NCBI RefSeq assembly: GCF_004834005.1
Contig: NZ_STFF01000014.1
Location: forward strand, 62,001-126,000
Reading direction: 5' to 3'
From: Niastella caeni
Lineage (GTDB): Bacteria > Bacteroidota > Bacteroidia > Chitinophagales > Chitinophagaceae
Length of the DNA stretch: 64,000 bases
The translations under genes and the position numbers were made by a program. Below, in pieces: positions 24,156 to 61,250 of the stretch. How positions within the stretch are numbered: position 1 is the first letter of the stretch; each line of letters begins with the position of its first letter. Below the pieces are notes generated by a model. It saw nothing but the letters and a program-made list of their open reading frames with translations. It was not told the origin of the DNA and did not search any database.

Positions 24156-25385
24156 TTATTTTTTACCTGGATGGATTGTTATGATCCGTTTGGAGATAGT
24201 GAAGGTAACACCTCCGGTGTATTCGAGCATTTGCAGCACTTTTGTTATGTCCGACTCCCGTTGAACTTCTCCACTGAAATGTAAAGAGGGAACTCCGGGT
24301 TCGTATACAACATCCATATCGTACCACCGGGCCAGTTCGTTCATGACCATTTTCAGCGAGGTATTGCGGAAAACGAACTCGCCGTTCTTCCAGGCTATTT
24401 CCTGTTTTACATCTGCCTCTTCAACGGTAACGGTGCTATCGGACGCAACGAGTTTTTTACCGGGCGTTAGCAGCTTGCTTTGGTTATTCCGGTTTACTTT
24501 TACCAGGCCTTCCACAACGGTTGTTTGTGAACGATTGTCTTCTTTGTAAGCAGAAATATTAAATGAAGTGCCTATTGCCTGCACTTCCATATTATCTACG
24601 TTTACAGTGAATGATTTTTTTACCCCTGTATTGGGCATGGTTGCAGTTGCTACTTCAAAGTAAGCCTCGCCGGTAAGAACTACCCGGCGGTCGTTGGTGG
24701 TAAAATGAACTGGGAACTGAAGGGTTGAAGCGGAGTTCAACCATACTTTGGAGCCATCTTCCAAAACTACCTGGTACTCGCCGCCGCGGGGAGTACGAAG
24801 GGTATTAAGTCCGGATGTGGTTTCAGCGGCGCCAGATAATTTATAAACGAGTTCACCATTTTGGTTTTTAAGAATAGCAACATTCCCTTGTTGGGCAATA
24901 TTACCATCATTCATTTCATTGAGTACGACGTTTGACCCATCGGCCAGGATCAACACTGCTTTTTTTGTATCGGGTTGTGCGCCCGGAGATTTTTTTTGTG
25001 CAACAATAGCGGATCTGGGCTTAGGCTTTTCCGCAGTATTTGTATTTAATGCAAAATAAGTAATACCACCTGCCACCACCAATAGCACCGCGGCAACCAT
25101 ATATGGCCAGATCCTGAAGTATACCCGTGTGCGGGTTACTTCAGGGGAGAAGAGCTTTTGCGCTAACTTTTCATAAGCCTGGTTATGGTCATAGGTCTGC
25201 AATTCATTGAGGTCGTAGCCCAGTTTTTCTTCATCCATCAAATCTTCATATAATAAAAAGTTATCACCATCCTCCTGAAGCCAGGTATCCAGCTCCTGCC
25301 GTTGATCAACGGTCAGTTTATCCTGCATATCCCTGACAATGAGAGAGGCGATGTGTGACGCTTTTTCTATTTGATGTTCTTTCAT
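24156..25385 (-). CDS. FecR-family anti-sigma factor
   Basis: About 409 residues from ATG 25385 (MKEHQIEKAS). Order: N-terminal cytoplasmic sigma-binding region (about 1-95), one transmembrane helix (MVAAVLLVVAGGITYF), periplasmic FecR domain (LRTPRGGEYQVVLEDG ... VVLTGEAYFEVA), and a C-terminal DUF4974-like STN domain (LKMVMNELARWYDMDVVYEP). It holds an ECF sigma factor inactive until a TonB-dependent transducer signals. Its likely sigma partner is at 27635-28258, unusually 2.2 kb away. No STN-bearing SusC follows; the next gene is a phospholipase D. Confidence 0.92.
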   Translation of the reverse strand: MKEHQIEKASHIASLIVRDMQDKLTVDQRQELDTWLQEDGDNFLLYEDLMDEEKLGYDLNELQTYDHNQAYEKLAQKLFSPEVTRTRVYFRIWPYMVAAVLLVVAGGITYFALNTNTAEKPKPRSAIVAQKKSPGAQPDTKKAVLILADGSNVVLNEMNDGNIAQQGNVAILKNQNGELVYKLSGAAETTSGLNTLRTPRGGEYQVVLEDGSKVWLNSASTLQFPVHFTTNDRRVVLTGEAYFEVATATMPNTGVKKSFTVNVDNMEVQAIGTSFNISAYKEDNRSQTTVVEGLVKVNRNNQSKLLTPGKKLVASDSTVTVEEADVKQEIAWKNGEFVFRNTSLKMVMNELARWYDMDVVYEPGVPSLHFSGEVQRESDITKVLQMLEYTGGVTFTISKRIITIHPGKK

Positions 25386-25505
25386 AAGACTAAGTTTACT
25401 TCTTAAATATGGCAAGCTAAAGGTCCGGATTTCCTCCACAACAATTGCCGGCTGCTACAAATACGCCCACCAGAAATGGTGTTGCATATTGCTATTATTG
25501 TAAGA

Positions 25506-25519
25506 ACAACAATTGTTGT
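25506..25519. promoter_or_regulatory. 14-bp perfect palindrome upstream of fecR
   Basis: ACAACAATTGTTGT, 121 bp ahead of the FecR start. Possible operator or cruciform site; no protein is known to bind it. Confidence 0.3.
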
Positions 25520-25950
25520 GATTTGTACTAAAGGGTTTGGATAAATTTTTAATGAATTCACAGGTTTGCAAAATATTATTCAATAATTGGGTAGGAATGC
25601 TAATGGTATAGCTATAATACCTGGGGTTTACGTTAATATATTCGTAAAGTCCTGGTAGGTTGCAGGGATGGTTTTGCCGGCTTCCTGGTGTTTACTACTA
25701 ATCGGTACGATGAATGCATGTAGCCGGTTTGAAATAGACACCCCTCTAATATTATAAAACAAATTATGTTTACGTTTGGCCTAAACAAAATTGAAAAAAT
25801 GTAAAAGGATATGATTGTAATCAAGCAAAGTATAGATATTGTTAATATGAACAGGTTAGAATTGACCAGATTGGGGTATTTGGGGAGAGAAGAAAAAGCC
25901 GAAAGCTATCGGAGCGAGTAGCTGGTGGGGAGGGAAGAAAGTGGCGTAGG

Positions 25951-26515
25951 GAAAGCGAGTGGTAAGTGGCGAGTGGCTAGTAGGGTGAAGAAAGTTATTG
26001 AGTTAATGGGTTTGTAAGTTGGTTGAAAGGGGAGTAGCGAGTAGGGGGGAGGAAGAAAGTTAATGAGTTAGTGGGGTTCGTAAGTTGGGTGAAAGGGAAA
26101 GCGAGTGGTAAGTGGCGAGTGGCTAGTAGAGTGAAGAAAGTTATTGAGTTAATGGGTTTGTAAGTTGGGTGAAAGGGAAAGCGAGTGGTAAGTGGCGAGT
26201 GGCTAGTAGAGTGAAGAAAGTTATTGAGTTAGTGGGGTTCGTAAGTTGGTTGAAAGGGAAAGTGAGTAGGAAGTTGCGAGTGGCGAGTAGGGGGAGGAAG
26301 AAAGTTATTGAGTTAATGGGTTTGTAAGTTGGGTGAAAGGGAAAGTGAGTAGGAAGTAGCGAGTGGCGAGTAGGGGGGATGAAAGTTTTTGAGTTAGTGG
26401 GTTTGTAAGTTGGTTGAAAGGGAAAGTGAGTAGGAAGTAGCGAGTGGCGAGTAGGGTGAAGAAAGTTATTGAGTTAATGGGTTTGTAAGTTGGGTGAAAG
26501 GGGGAGTAGGGGAGG
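25951..26515. repeat. 80-bp tandem array with alternating A/B units, C-depleted
   Basis: Seven units start at about 25987, 26052, 26133, 26213, 26297, 26379 and 26458 (spacings 65, 81, 80, 84, 82 and 79), preceded by half a unit at 25951. Each unit joins a segment like GTTATTGAGTTAATGGG to one like GCGAGTGGTAAGTGGCGAG. Units alternate between GAGTTAATGGGTTTG (A) and GAGTTAGTGGGGTTCG (B), giving a higher-order period near 160 bp. The plus strand is almost without C (3 of 80 in the unit at 26133). Not CRISPR: there are no unique spacers. Confidence 0.9.
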
Positions 26516-26654
26516 AAGAGGGTCCTTTATTTTGTGAGTCTATAAGTGAGTGAAAGTTGAAGAGCTGATAGTAAGTAGAGGGTGGCGAGCAAGAAGGGAA
26601 AGCAATAGACAAATAGAAGTAACTATTGCCCGATCGCTGGTAACTGGTAACTGG

Positions 26655-26687
26655 TAAAAAAAGAAAAGCCGGGTAAGACTACCCGGC
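26655..26687 (-). terminator. rho-independent terminator (minus strand)
   Basis: Perfect 8-bp GC-rich stem at 26668-26687 with a U-rich tail on the minus strand. Confidence 0.7.
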
Positions 26688-26740
26688 CGTGGGGGATTCC
26701 TGCGCCTCTTCTGTACCAGGAAGAGGGATAATTGATGCAC
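26655..26740 (-). ncRNA. possible small structured RNA or leader ending in a terminator
   Basis: On the minus strand, from about 26740: hairpin CCTCTTC / GAAGAGG, then a perfect 8-bp hairpin (GCCGGGTA / TACCCGGC, tetraloop) followed by TTTTCTTTTTTT at 26667-26655. Two consecutive hairpins with a U-tract and no downstream gene for over 1 kb suggest a short independent transcript. No promoter was identified, so it could be only a terminator. Confidence 0.3.
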
Positions 26741-27021
26741 ATGAGGAATGCGAATGAGAAAAAAACTACCTAAAGTTTAGGATATAATAATGTATTGAAA
26801 CCATACCAGGCAATTACTGCCTATACGGATAGACGTAACTAAACAATAAAAAGCTAATCAGAAATCCTTTGGAAATTTTTACTACTAATGAGGAGCCTGC
26901 AGATACTTGTTGTTCTTAAATACACATATATGTTTTGCGTATTTAAAGGATGGAGGTTTAATACTTGCCTAAGAAGGCGGGTAATAAGGGTAATAAATTT
27001 ATAGAGATGTTCTTAGTTTTT

Positions 27022-27049
27022 AAAAAAAAGGGAGAGTAGAAACACTCCC
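27022..27049 (-). terminator. rho-independent terminator (minus strand)
   Basis: Stem GGGAG-x-GT / AC-x-CTCCC (one mismatch, loop of 4) followed on the minus strand by eight U. Confidence 0.75.
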
Positions 27050-27150
27050 TTGTAGTGACCCAACCAAACAGTCACATGAGATTCCCGCTCGACGCTCCGT
27101 CCTTCTCGTCTGGCTGAAAGAACGAAAAGTGCGGATGTATAACATCGGGC
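27022..27150 (-). ncRNA. candidate small RNA between two terminators
   Basis: Read on the minus strand, about 130 nt bounded upstream by one terminator (27155-27176) and ending in another (27022-27049). Inside are potential stems GATGT/ACATC, CGTTCTT/AAGGACG and GTGAC/GTCAC. There is no open reading frame of note. No known RNA family is recognised and the promoter is not clear. Confidence 0.3.
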
Positions 27151-27154
27151 GGAC

Positions 27155-27176
27155 AAAAAAGGCCTTTTGTAAAGGC
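27155..27176 (-). terminator. rho-independent terminator (minus strand) downstream of the sigma gene
   Basis: Stem GCCTTT / AAAGGC with loop ACA, followed on the minus strand by six U. It lies 459 bp past the sigma-factor stop. Confidence 0.6.
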
Positions 27177-27634
27177 TAACTGTTCATTTATTGTTCAGGG
27201 TTAATTTAGAAGCAATTCACACCAGCATACACATACCCGATACGTTATACTACCAGGTTGGTACCTCCCAACTTCTTTTAACCCCTAGCACTTGTAAACA
27301 ATCATTTCACCATAAACAGCTATTTTACTTCTTATTTACTGTTACACGGGCTTCATCTGAATTCGTACAACAGTTGCTGTATGATCTTAAATATTATTTA
27401 ATAAAATTGCCAAAGTGTTTTAAATGGCTATACTTTAATAGCAATACTCATTAAATCTATTTAAGTGTAAAGAGCTTTTTATATCCCGCACGGCCGAATA
27501 AGTAATTATCAGTTTAGTATTAAAACAACTTTTCGTGCCTTTATTACTATTCCAAATGAAAAAAAATTTAATAAATTTCTATAAATGGGTATTTACACCT
27601 ATTTGTGGGTTGCAATTTTGCTGAAAACTGATGT

Positions 27635-28258
27635 TTAGGCAGGTAATTGCAGGTTTTGGCAGTTGTCGGAGGTGGCCCTTAAGATGGTACATAGTATGAG
27701 GAAAGTCATTAAATCGCGGTCGCGAAGCTTTATTTTTAATAATTGTATGGCCCTTGCCTTTTGATTTTTAACGGTATGCACCGATATCTGCAGCAGATCT
27801 GCTATTTCCTGGTTTTTTAATCCTTCCAGGTATCCCAGCTTTAATACTTTACCGCATTGTTCGGGCAGGTTATCAATTTCTTTCATTATTTCCTTCAACA
27901 CTTCGGCCCTTATCATTTCATTCAAAACAAATTCTTCTTTTTCGCCCGTTATATAAGCCAGTTGCTTTTTACTCAGTGAATCGCGTTTGGCTTGCTTTAA
28001 ATGATTGAGGCAGGCATTGCGTACGGTGATGTACATAAATGCCTTTATGTTCTGCAGGCTTTCAAAGTCGGTTCGCTTATGCCATAATTTTATAAAAGAT
28101 TCACCAACAATATCTTCTGCGGCGGCTCTGTCGGTCAGCAGCCGATCGGCAAATAAACATAAAGGATTATAGAACTGCTTTAACAGCGATTGTAAAGCAT
28201 CGGGATCTCCTTGCTGGAAAGATTCAATGATTTCATTGCTCAACGGAAGTGAACGCAT
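27635..28258 (-). CDS. ECF RNA polymerase sigma factor (sigma-70 family)
   Basis: 207 residues. Region 2 is seen in FYNPLCLFADRLL ... AAEDIVGESFIKLW ... IKAFMYITVRNACLNHL (about 27-95). Region 4 is seen in NLPEQCGKVLKLGYLEGLKNQ and EIADLLQISVHTVKNQKARA (about 135-175). The C-terminal tail is hydrophobic (DLMTFLILCTILRA), as is common in Bacteroidota ECF factors paired with FecR. It should direct transcription of a SusC-type gene on signal from its FecR (likely 24156-25385). Target genes are not adjacent. The normal sigma-FecR adjacency is broken by 2.2 kb. Confidence 0.93.
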   Translation of the reverse strand: MRSLPLSNEIIESFQQGDPDALQSLLKQFYNPLCLFADRLLTDRAAAEDIVGESFIKLWHKRTDFESLQNIKAFMYITVRNACLNHLKQAKRDSLSKKQLAYITGEKEEFVLNEMIRAEVLKEIMKEIDNLPEQCGKVLKLGYLEGLKNQEIADLLQISVHTVKNQKARAIQLLKIKLRDRDLMTFLILCTILRATSDNCQNLQLPA

Positions 28259-28982
28259 TAGGACGATTGTTTTTTGCTAACCTAGATAATAAAAGTTCGA
28301 TTAATTTACAATGAGTTACGGTAAATAATAAACGCATTACGGATATGGCATGCTTATTCTTTGTTTCTGGTTATCAGGTTGCAATTCCATGGGGATTCCG
28401 GGTAAAAATTCGATAAAATAAGATAAGGTGTAAGTTGAGATGCAGTTATTGCCGGAGAATATGGCAAAACTACCGAAAGCGATTTATGCGTCTAATGTAC
28501 TGAATAAATTGAAAGCAAACACAACAAGTATAGATTAAGGTGAAAAAACAGCTATAAGCTTCAAGCCGTAAGCTGCAAGCGAATACACGCTGCAAGCCTC
28601 ACGCGAATACAAATATGGCTGCAAGCTGCAGCTCCGAAAGCTAAAAGCAAATACAAATAAAACTAACAGCCATCAGGCAAAAACAATATTGCCTAACAAA
28701 TTAAACGCCTTTGTTTTGCTCGTGGTGTATAGATATTTATTTTTTCTGGCAAAAATCGTGCAGAGGTAACGTGGAGATCTTCTTCGGTTTAGTCCTTGTG
28801 CTTTGTGCTTTCTTTGGCTTTAGCGTGAAGCGTGCGGCGTTCAGCGTGTAGCATATCTTCCGGCTTTGCTTTCAGTCTTGAGCTTTCAGCATTAGGCTTT
28901 GGCGTGCAGCGTGTAGCGTGCGGCTTGAGCGTATCTTCCGGCTTTGCTTTCAGCTTACAGCTTTTAGCTTGCAGCCTTCTCC
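28259..28982. other. 724-bp intergenic region dominated by a large repeat element
   Basis: No coding region is supported. The first about 290 bp are AT-rich and should include the sigma-gene promoter (minus strand). The rest is the AGCTGCAAGC-type inverted-repeat element listed separately. Confidence 0.6.
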
Positions 28983-28996
28983 CTACAGCTTACAAC
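28549..28996. repeat. large inverted-repeat element, AGCTGCAAGC-type arms
   Basis: Left arm (28549-28660) is a degenerate tandem of AAGCTGCAAGCG-like units. Right arm (28800-28996) holds many copies of the complementary vocabulary (GCTTGCAGC, CAGCTTACAGCTTTTAGC, GCGTGCAGCGTGTAGCG). The core is about 140 bp and contains the small hairpin AGGCAA / TTGCCT. The right arm has an internal direct repeat: CCGGCTTTGCTTTCAG near 28859 and again near 28938. The right arm supplies the last residues (SCKL) and stop of the RES toxin gene. Confidence 0.75.
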
Positions 28997-29420
28997 TAAC
29001 TACGTCTATAATTTTTACTGCACTAATTAGTGGGTGTAAAGTGTTCAACACAAAATTGAATTCCTGGTTGATCATTACTGAAGGGACTTTTAGTAACAGG
29101 CATTCCTGATTCAATAATAATTCGGAACCCATATCCCGGCTTTTATTATTATGCGGTCGTTGAAACCAGTCGGCTGGTAATTCATCGATGGTGAGTTGCC
29201 GCATGGAATGTTCGGGTACATCAATGGTAGTAAATGAAAGGGCAGGTGGCAGGGTTTCTATGGTTGAATGAGACACATATTCCAATAACGACAAAGCCCG
29301 GCTTTCTGCCAGGTAAATACAAGGGGTGCCCTCATGGTTCCATCGACCACCATTCAATTTGGCGCCCATTCCTGTTAGGTCATGGGCATGTTTTGTCTTT
29401 CCAATCCGGTAAAGCCGCAT
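28983..29420 (-). CDS. RES-domain toxin (putative NAD+ phosphorylase)
   Basis: 145 residues, the usual size. It begins MRLYRIGKTKHA and has GGRWNHEGTPCIYLAESRA and LSLLEYVSH, which carry the Arg, Glu and Ser that name the RES family. Characterised RES toxins degrade NAD+ by phosphorolysis. The antitoxin gene is 18 bp upstream on the same strand (RES-Xre pair). The last five codons and the stop (28983-28997) lie in an intergenic repeat arm, so the C-terminus may be slightly changed, but the domain looks complete. Confidence 0.9.
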   Translation of the reverse strand: MRLYRIGKTKHAHDLTGMGAKLNGGRWNHEGTPCIYLAESRALSLLEYVSHSTIETLPPALSFTTIDVPEHSMRQLTIDELPADWFQRPHNNKSRDMGSELLLNQECLLLKVPSVMINQEFNFVLNTLHPLISAVKIIDVVSCKL

Positions 29421-29438
29421 AATACAAAAGCCGTTATA

Positions 29439-29975
29439 TTAATTTACACCGTATTCAATACGGCCTAATTCTTTTTTTACTTCTTCAATACCGTATAAAG
29501 TATCCAGCAGCTCCAATGGCGCTTTATTGCCCAGGGCAATGCTTGGTTTTTTTAGCCAGGTGTTAAAAAGGTCCTTGCTTTCAAACACATCCTGACCATA
29601 GCAAATGAGTTCCGCTAAAAGCATTATGCGTTCGCTGGTAGGCAGGTCGAATTTATCATCGCCTTTCTTTTTAATAAGCGTAGTGCGGGAAACAGATAAC
29701 AGGTTACTTAAGGTGTGGTAATCGAGATCGGTTTCCGATTTAATGGCTTCCAGTTGCTTTTTGGTGATGCCATTTCGAACGATGCCGATCTTATACTGAG
29801 AAGTTAATGACTCAAAGTTGAATGGCCCGTTTTGGGCTTGCCTTTCCCGGGTAGTAAAAACCGGTGAAGGCACTGAGAGGGTACTTGTTTCCGTATGTTC
29901 ATCCGGTAATGGTTGGCCGGAATTTTTACCAATAAGGAGAGGGGTATTTGCGTGGGGGTTTTTGTTGCCTGCCAT
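29439..29975 (-). CDS. Xre/MbcA/ParS-type antitoxin of the RES toxin
   Basis: About 178 residues from ATG 29975 (MAGNKNPH); a TTG 21 bp upstream would place the start within a palindrome and is less likely. An unstructured N-terminal about 50 residues is followed by the Xre-like HTH (ITKKQLEAIKSETDLDYHTL ... SVSRTTLIKKK) and the C-terminal toxin-binding domain (ERIMLLAELICYGQDVF ... FNTWLKKPSIALG). It binds and neutralises the RES toxin and normally represses its own operon. First gene of the two-gene unit. Confidence 0.88.
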   Translation of the reverse strand: MAGNKNPHANTPLLIGKNSGQPLPDEHTETSTLSVPSPVFTTRERQAQNGPFNFESLTSQYKIGIVRNGITKKQLEAIKSETDLDYHTLSNLLSVSRTTLIKKKGDDKFDLPTSERIMLLAELICYGQDVFESKDLFNTWLKKPSIALGNKAPLELLDTLYGIEEVKKELGRIEYGVN

Positions 29976-29977
29976 AA

Positions 29978-29994
29978 GGTTAATGGTTTTAACC
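29978..29994. promoter_or_regulatory. candidate antitoxin operator
   Basis: Perfect inverted repeat GGTTAA-N5-TTAACC directly before the antitoxin ATG (29975). The position fits autoregulation by an Xre-type antitoxin. Confidence 0.45.
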
Positions 29995-30090
29995 AAAGCT
30001 AGGTAACTTTTTTCCCTTTATGAATTTATAATGAAGCTTCCCGCTATTTTTTGATTTAAAGCAATTTATTTGATGTCCTTAGTCTGTTCG

Positions 30091-45039: not shown

Positions 45040-45131
45040 TTAGTTCGTAAGTTATTGAGTTATTAAGTTCATAAGTTCTTTGGTTCATTACTTACTAACT
45101 CATTAACTAAATAACTCAATAACTAAGAAAC
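45040..45131. repeat. inverted-repeat element, GTAAGTTATTGAGTTA-type arms
   Basis: Left arm (45040-45085) is a tandem of GTAAGTTATTGAGTTATTAA-like units; right arm (45087-45131) holds TAACTCATTAACTAAATAAC and TCAATAACTAAG. Almost no core. The right arm ends 7 bp before the ATG of the acetylesterase gene, so a folded hairpin would cover its ribosome-binding region. Same vocabulary as 52667-52744 and the 25951-26515 array. Confidence 0.8.
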
Positions 45132-45138
45132 GGTTGCT

Positions 45139-52652: not shown

Positions 52653-52666
52653 AGCAAGTAAAGACA

Positions 52667-52744
52667 ATTAGTTAGTAAGTTATTAAGTTTGTAAGTTAAT
52701 AGGTTAAGAACTCAAGAACTAAATAACTCAATAACTAACTAACA
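52667..52744. repeat. inverted-repeat element, GTAAGTTATTAAGTTTGTAAG-type arms
   Basis: Left arm (52667-52706) is a tandem of AGTAAGTTATTAAGTTTG-like units; right arm (52708-52744) holds AACTCAAGAACTAAATAAC and TCAATAACTAACTAACAT. Almost no core. The right arm ends 2 bp before the ATG of the GH43-like gene (52747), so the hairpin would cover its translation start. Confidence 0.8.
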
Positions 52745-52746
52745 TA

Positions 52747-61124: not shown

Positions 61125-61250
61125 TCCTTCGACTCCGCTCAGGACTCGACTCCGCTCAGGACTCGACTCCGCTCAGGAATCGACTCCACTCAGGACTCGA
61201 CTCCGCCCAGGACTCGTTTTCACAACCCTGAGCGTAGCCGAAGTGTCGAA
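61125..61250. repeat. 17-bp tandem repeat with inverted closing arm
   Basis: Five direct copies of CGACTCCGCTCAGGACT start at 61130, 61147, 61164, 61181 and 61198 with one to two changes each. A single inverted copy, CCTGAGCGTAGCCGAAG (61227-61243), can pair with any of them (best with 61127-61143). The element begins directly after the GH2-like stop codon (61122-61124). 17 bp is not a multiple of 3. Confidence 0.9.

Follow-up and report, generated by a model that had tools for sequence, protein, structure and literature searches.

Heptamers of the short tandemly repeated repetitive (STRR) class lie in the intergenic DNA of cyanobacteria. Tracts of degenerate 7- and 8-nt words, as described below, are known in simpler form from a few bacteria. 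Intergenic heptamer direct repeats were reported in Beggiatoaceae, Cyanobacteria, and five Bacteroidetes, where several heptamers form larger assemblages and close relatives share the neighbourhood but not the repeats (MacGregor 2015, PMC4679880). Among long simple sequence repeats of 5-11 nt, heptanucleotides are the commonest in most prokaryote genomes, and polymerase slippage was proposed as their origin, according to the account of that work given in the same paper (Mrazek 2007, cited in PMC4679880). G-rich heptamer repeats of Xanthomonas and Nostoc form G-quadruplexes, and heptanucleotides of Calothrix are mentioned in the same source (PMC4692102). Our literature search for such repeats in Chitinophaga and Niastella found no relevant description.

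The window analysed here is a stretch of 64,000 nucleotides from Niastella caeni (positions 62001-126000 of contig NZ_STFF01000014.1; the source genome comprises 8.1 Mb in 17 contigs). It carries a non-coding 80-bp tandem array (25948..26517, minus strand) in the ~2.2-kb spacer between an ECF sigma factor gene (27635..28258, minus strand) and a fecR-like anti-sigma gene with FecR and FecR_C domains (24156..25439, minus strand). Relative to the flanking genes, the minus strand of the array is the sense strand; it is rich in C and poor in G. No long open frame runs through the array on either strand, and a coding origin was ruled out for this reason. The array is a degenerate, second-level form of the known intergenic heptamer repeats. 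It resembles the repeats of MacGregor (PMC4679880) in that both are intergenic, consist mainly of 7-nt units, differ among relatives with the same neighbourhood, and build larger assemblages from several heptamers. Those repeats are near-perfect copies of one heptamer (TAACTGA), whereas here many degenerate 7- and 8-nt words occur, frequently as hairpin arms, and are organized into a second-level 80-bp tandem unit. Because its words are degenerate and not near-perfect copies of a single word, the array was assigned to the same kind in the wider sense, not to the simple repeats of the TAACTGA type. The simple repeats of Mrazek 2007, as far as they are outlined in PMC4679880, also differ, since definitions of simple repeats do not accommodate units as degenerate as these, and the array repeats with an 80-bp unit. 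Heptamers in intergenic DNA are common to the array and STRR repeats, but phylum and words differ. The array and the Xanthomonas/Nostoc repeats (PMC4692102) are both strand-asymmetric and intergenic; unlike the latter, the array contains no short-loop G-quadruplex motif.

The array spans ~570 bases and starts with a 7-mer half unit (25948..25992, minus strand), a tract of 7-nt words reading YACTCGC on the minus strand, followed by seven units of ~80 bp. A motif search located seven GAGTTA cores, at 25999 (A type), 26064 (B), 26145 (A), 26225 (B), 26309 (A), 26390 (B', a hybrid), and 26470 (A), with spacings of 65, 81, 80, 84, 81, and 80. The sequence-only reading had described this order of A and B cores, the sixth being a hybrid, in seven full units plus a half unit. 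The first 8-nt word core (25991..26030, minus strand) reads CAACTTAC-AAACCCAT-TAACTCAA-TAACTTTC on the minus strand, where the array unit joins this 8-nt-word tract to a tract of 7-nt words (CTACTCGCCACTCGCTACTTC...). Units 1 (65 nt) and 7 (62 nt) are shortened. With tandem units in the 10-100 bp range that are 85-98% identical to one another, the array has the form of a minisatellite (VNTR) locus. TRF gave a period of 81 (5.6 copies, score 673, 90% matches) and, as a second solution, a period of 164 (2.8 copies, score 723). A satellite-like period of ~160 bp had been proposed, and this holds for the ~24-nt core, which alternates between A and B; it does not hold for the other ~45 nt of the unit, which occur without alternation in one version in units 1-3 and in another in units 4-6. 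Mean unit identity was 0.91 between neighbours vs. 0.93 between next-neighbours, and A+B dimers are not more alike over the whole unit, as they are in a higher-order-repeat satellite. Such a pattern of unit similarity points to duplication and conversion acting locally, not to a clean dimeric satellite. Within the A-type core, 24 nt are identical across all four A units.

The plus strand proved to be almost without C, as claimed: positions 25951-26515 (565 bases) contain 242 G, 164 A, 141 T, and 18 C. Among 8435 500-bp windows of an 864-kb genome sample, none outside the array came near its low count of either C or G (15 C), the next-lowest there being 50, which makes the array the most C-poor stretch of the sample. 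The GC skew was 0.60 in the 1-kb bin of the array and at most 0.17 in all other bins.

Genome statistics were obtained from this 864-kb sample (10.7% of the genome), in which genes were called simply by codon usage, and from searches of the whole genome. The sample contained 230 word tracts, which make up 10-11% of intergenic bases and ~0.3% of coding bases; such tracts can escalate into satellite-like arrays. Periods 7 and 8 and their multiples dominate the periodic intergenic DNA, with 171 period-7 tracts (8395 bases, 7.7% of intergenic bases) and 63 period-8 tracts (3365 bases, 3.1%). Lags of 5, 6, 9, and 10 accounted for fewer than 200 intergenic bases each (each under 0.2%), and period 11 showed a small excess (1.0%). 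In coding DNA, periods 7 and 8 reached about 0.2% and 0.1%, and first-order Markov sequences yielded 42 and 268 bases, respectively. The same two periods were found in the intergenic DNA of the congener G004; among other genera of the family, one of four (G018) had period 7/8 tracts and the other three hardly any. Tracts were present in 147 of 403 spacers. Their words are degenerate, most often with four conserved positions of seven. A complementary arm within 250 bp accompanied 67 of the 230 tracts (~29%), at a score reached by 3% of random pairings. Of 50 arms in co-directional and convergent spacers, 44 follow one order, in which a G/T-rich arm precedes an A/C-rich one.

Intergenic hairpins of degenerate 7/8-nt words were seen at 45040-45133 and 52661-52746 in the window and at 10217-10315 in L078. 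The two hairpins at 45040 and 52667 belong to this word-arm type and fold well (z -4.6 and -2.9). They had been said to use the vocabulary of the array, and exact shared words of 15 nt and 13 nt support this; shuffled arrays shared a word of 8 nt on average, and 13 nt at most, with the 45040 hairpin. We found no complementary arm near the array, in agreement with the sequence-only reading: the best inverted scores were 15-16 within ~6 kb vs. 17-21 elsewhere in the window. A hidden complementary arm was rejected since scores within ~6 kb were no better than those in the rest of the window.

The units of the array are made of genome-wide words. Both unit halves, with periods of 7 or 8, consist of words of the tracts seen across the genome, including ACTCGCC/AACTCAAT words and words found, e.g., at L068 14767 and L073 7236. 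The suggested one-armed expansion of the same repeat vocabulary fits the finding that 11.5% of the array 12-mers recur in other word tracts vs. 0.19% for shuffled sequence, a 60-fold enrichment; coding DNA showed no excess. A search for the unit elsewhere in the genome, as had been proposed, found the composite once only, with pieces of 28-74 bp matching elsewhere. Other composite arrays of this genome have units of 40 bp (three copies, L069) and 63 bp (2.6 copies, L107). A 78-bp composite repeat (1.9 copies) of GCTTTCAGC/AGCGTGCAGC words was noticed at 28816-28968, in the spacer between the sigma and RES genes, with imperfect inverted partners at 28557-28604.

On the sense (minus) strand, the spacer consists of conserved block 1, conserved block 2, a variable stretch with the array, and the fecR leader. 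Block 1 (27020..27193, minus strand) is a candidate non-coding RNA and contains two terminators (27162-27176 and 27032-27049); ~130 nt of it are nearly invariant in ten congeners, with an intrinsic terminator at the end. No Rfam family matched block 1 at gathering score, and the one weak match in a conserved block (Termite-leu, E 0.084) was far below the cut-off. This block and the orthologous spacers in L082-L090 may hold an undescribed non-coding RNA or leader. Block 2 (26660..26787, minus strand), a candidate non-coding RNA or leader, ends in a strong intrinsic-terminator hairpin (GGCCGGGTAGTCTTACCCGGCT-TTTCTTTTTT, 26667..26688, minus strand) that is kept in 10/10 genomes and precedes the array on the sense strand. 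The block 2 hairpin GGCCGGGTAGTCTTACCCGGC was seen in all ten congeners. The conserved fecR leader region (approximately 25440..25850, minus strand) closes the spacer on the far side. In the sense direction, two candidate non-coding RNAs and three terminators thus precede the array, and the fecR leader follows it.

By alignment search of contigs with the sigma factor, the nearest relatives with the same genes were found in Niastella and Longitalea (Chitinophagaceae). Nine congeners share the gene order GntR-(Xre-RES)-sigma-fecR-PLD-YdjM, two of them without Xre-RES, and the sigma-fecR spacer measures 1.5-2.4 kb in all congeners. The window encodes a RES-domain toxin and Xre/MbcA/ParS antitoxin pair at 28983-29996, which G002 and G009 lack at the same place. 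A search for the composite array in 59 relatives matched only short pieces. The conserved flanks enclose different repeats: a word tract was present in the sigma-fecR spacer of 9/10 genomes (one genome per species, with related genomes counted as independent), and the words differed in each; G001 had no tract. Examples of these words are GGCAATAGACAATAG and CAACTGGTCAACTAG in G003, AACCACAAACAACAAACC in G005, GCCTTCAGCTTTCAGCC in G007, and GAACTATGAACT in G002. As a base rate, tracts were found in 6 of 16 spacers of at least 1 kb in this genome and in 3 of 16 in G004. Arrays of larger units but other sequence occur independently at the same spot in G003 (83 bp, 1.8 copies), G007 (49 bp, 2.2 copies), and G009 (17 bp, 4.2 copies). 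A separate 91-bp array (4.0 copies) with a different sequence occupies the orthologous position in G006 (L084). The unrelated words suggest separate origins at this spacer, although they may also descend from a single ancestral tract with fast turnover. Ten congeners with the same gene order and different words in one spacer make the birth and turnover of repeats directly testable. In the convergent PLD-YdjM spacer (L082-L086, L089), tracts with differing words were noticed in six of the seven congeners where the spacer is at least 60 bp.

We consider it probable that the array arose when word-repeat DNA was secondarily amplified in tandem, in a spacer that is insulated and under weak constraint. 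The starting material would have been an 8-nt-word tract (AACTxxxx type) beside a 7-nt-word tract (YACTCGC type), both without complementary arms and both of the arm type usually found second. Ordinary tandem duplication, with subsequent slippage or unequal exchange, may then have multiplied the ~80-bp composite to about seven copies, and later conversion among the copies would explain why the core alternates beside flanks that do not. The strand asymmetry follows because both tracts are arms of the A/C type, and these lie in the usual orientation and position of such arms, second and nearer the downstream gene. With three terminators ahead of it and the fecR leader behind, the site is insulated, and this may be why the array has persisted; length and sequence there are consequently probably under weak constraint. 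The array is real and extreme; most likely it acts as a spacer and not as a new machine. Three findings count against a neutral spacer. The sense strand of the variable stretch has C>G in 9/10 species (C/G is 0.96 in G001), and its composition may be constrained. The 24-nt A-type core is identical in four units while the rest diverges, and this could reflect selection as well as conversion. Tracts at this one spacer, in 9/10 species, exceed the base rate, and repeats could be wanted there.

A further reading, which we consider unlikely, is that certain spacers, here sigma-fecR and the neighbouring PLD-YdjM spacer, are persistently re-filled in each species with unrelated 7/8-nt words and tandem arrays. 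If this were true, there would be an active word-generating process with a fixed step of 7-8 nt that favours the 3' ends of transcription units, and perhaps the C>G sense composition would be preserved to serve Rho-dependent insulation.

Rho itself enters a related reading, in which the array would serve as an insulator that loads Rho in the manner of a rut site: transcripts reading through from the sigma/ncRNA side would turn C-rich, G-poor, and unstructured, and Rho would bind them and terminate transcription before fecR. We regard this as unlikely, although the sense RNA of the array has the C-rich, G-poor, and unstructured character of a rut site, being nearly structureless (MFE -4.3 kcal/mol for 565 nt). 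The sense RNA of the variable stretch is also C-rich (C/G 7.4), the prevalence of C over G in 9/10 species despite differing words fits a factor such as Rho that reads composition rather than sequence, and Rho is encoded in the genome. However, single-arm tracts in co-directional spacers showed no sense bias across the genome (60 with C>G vs. 52 with G>C, and 13 vs. 13 in G004). A general rut role for single-arm tracts was rejected on this lack of orientation bias, and for the same reason Rho-dependent insulation was kept as a rival and not as the main account. In addition, the three intrinsic terminators already upstream of the array leave little read-through to be expected, and the G001 spacer, with neither a tract nor an excess of C, does not conform.

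Much less probable are G-quadruplexes or R-loops on the G-rich plus strand with a local effect on replication or transcription. The strong strand asymmetry and the runs of G are suggestive, and the plus strand as RNA folds better than shuffled sequences (z -5.5), but this fold consists largely of G-U and A-U pairs between repeat words. The G-structures anticipated by the sequence-only reading found no support: motifs of four G-runs of at least 3 with loops up to 7 nt numbered zero in the array, vs. 0.6 on average in shuffled arrays, and a single motif appeared with loops up to 12 nt. R-loops are favoured by G-rich RNA and not by C-rich RNA. Transcription from the flanking genes across the array is expected to give C-rich RNA, which speaks against the R-loops proposed earlier, at least in the sense direction.

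We give equally little credence to a putative sequence-specific binding array through which a transcriptional or RNA-binding regulator would control fecR. The identical A-type core in four units and the adjoining conserved fecR leader would suit such a function, but the A-type core is present at this spot in 0/9 relatives despite the conserved leader and genes, and the 91-bp array of G006 differs in sequence.

An assembly artefact, the danger named by the sequence-only reading, is highly improbable even in a draft genome of 17 contigs, where repeats are error-prone, because the units differ from one another (85-98% identity, distinct lengths), the array lies well inside its contig (88 kb into its 161 kb), and relatives carry comparable arrays at this position. 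Phage and plasmid records gave no match to the array, and an origin from a mobile element, phage, or plasmid was rejected on this ground and on its single occurrence. Near-perfect tandem repeats of 17 and 16 bp were also observed, at 61129-61216 in the window and at 10953-11032 in L107 (TCGACTCCGCTCAGGAC / CGGCTCCGCTCAGGAC).
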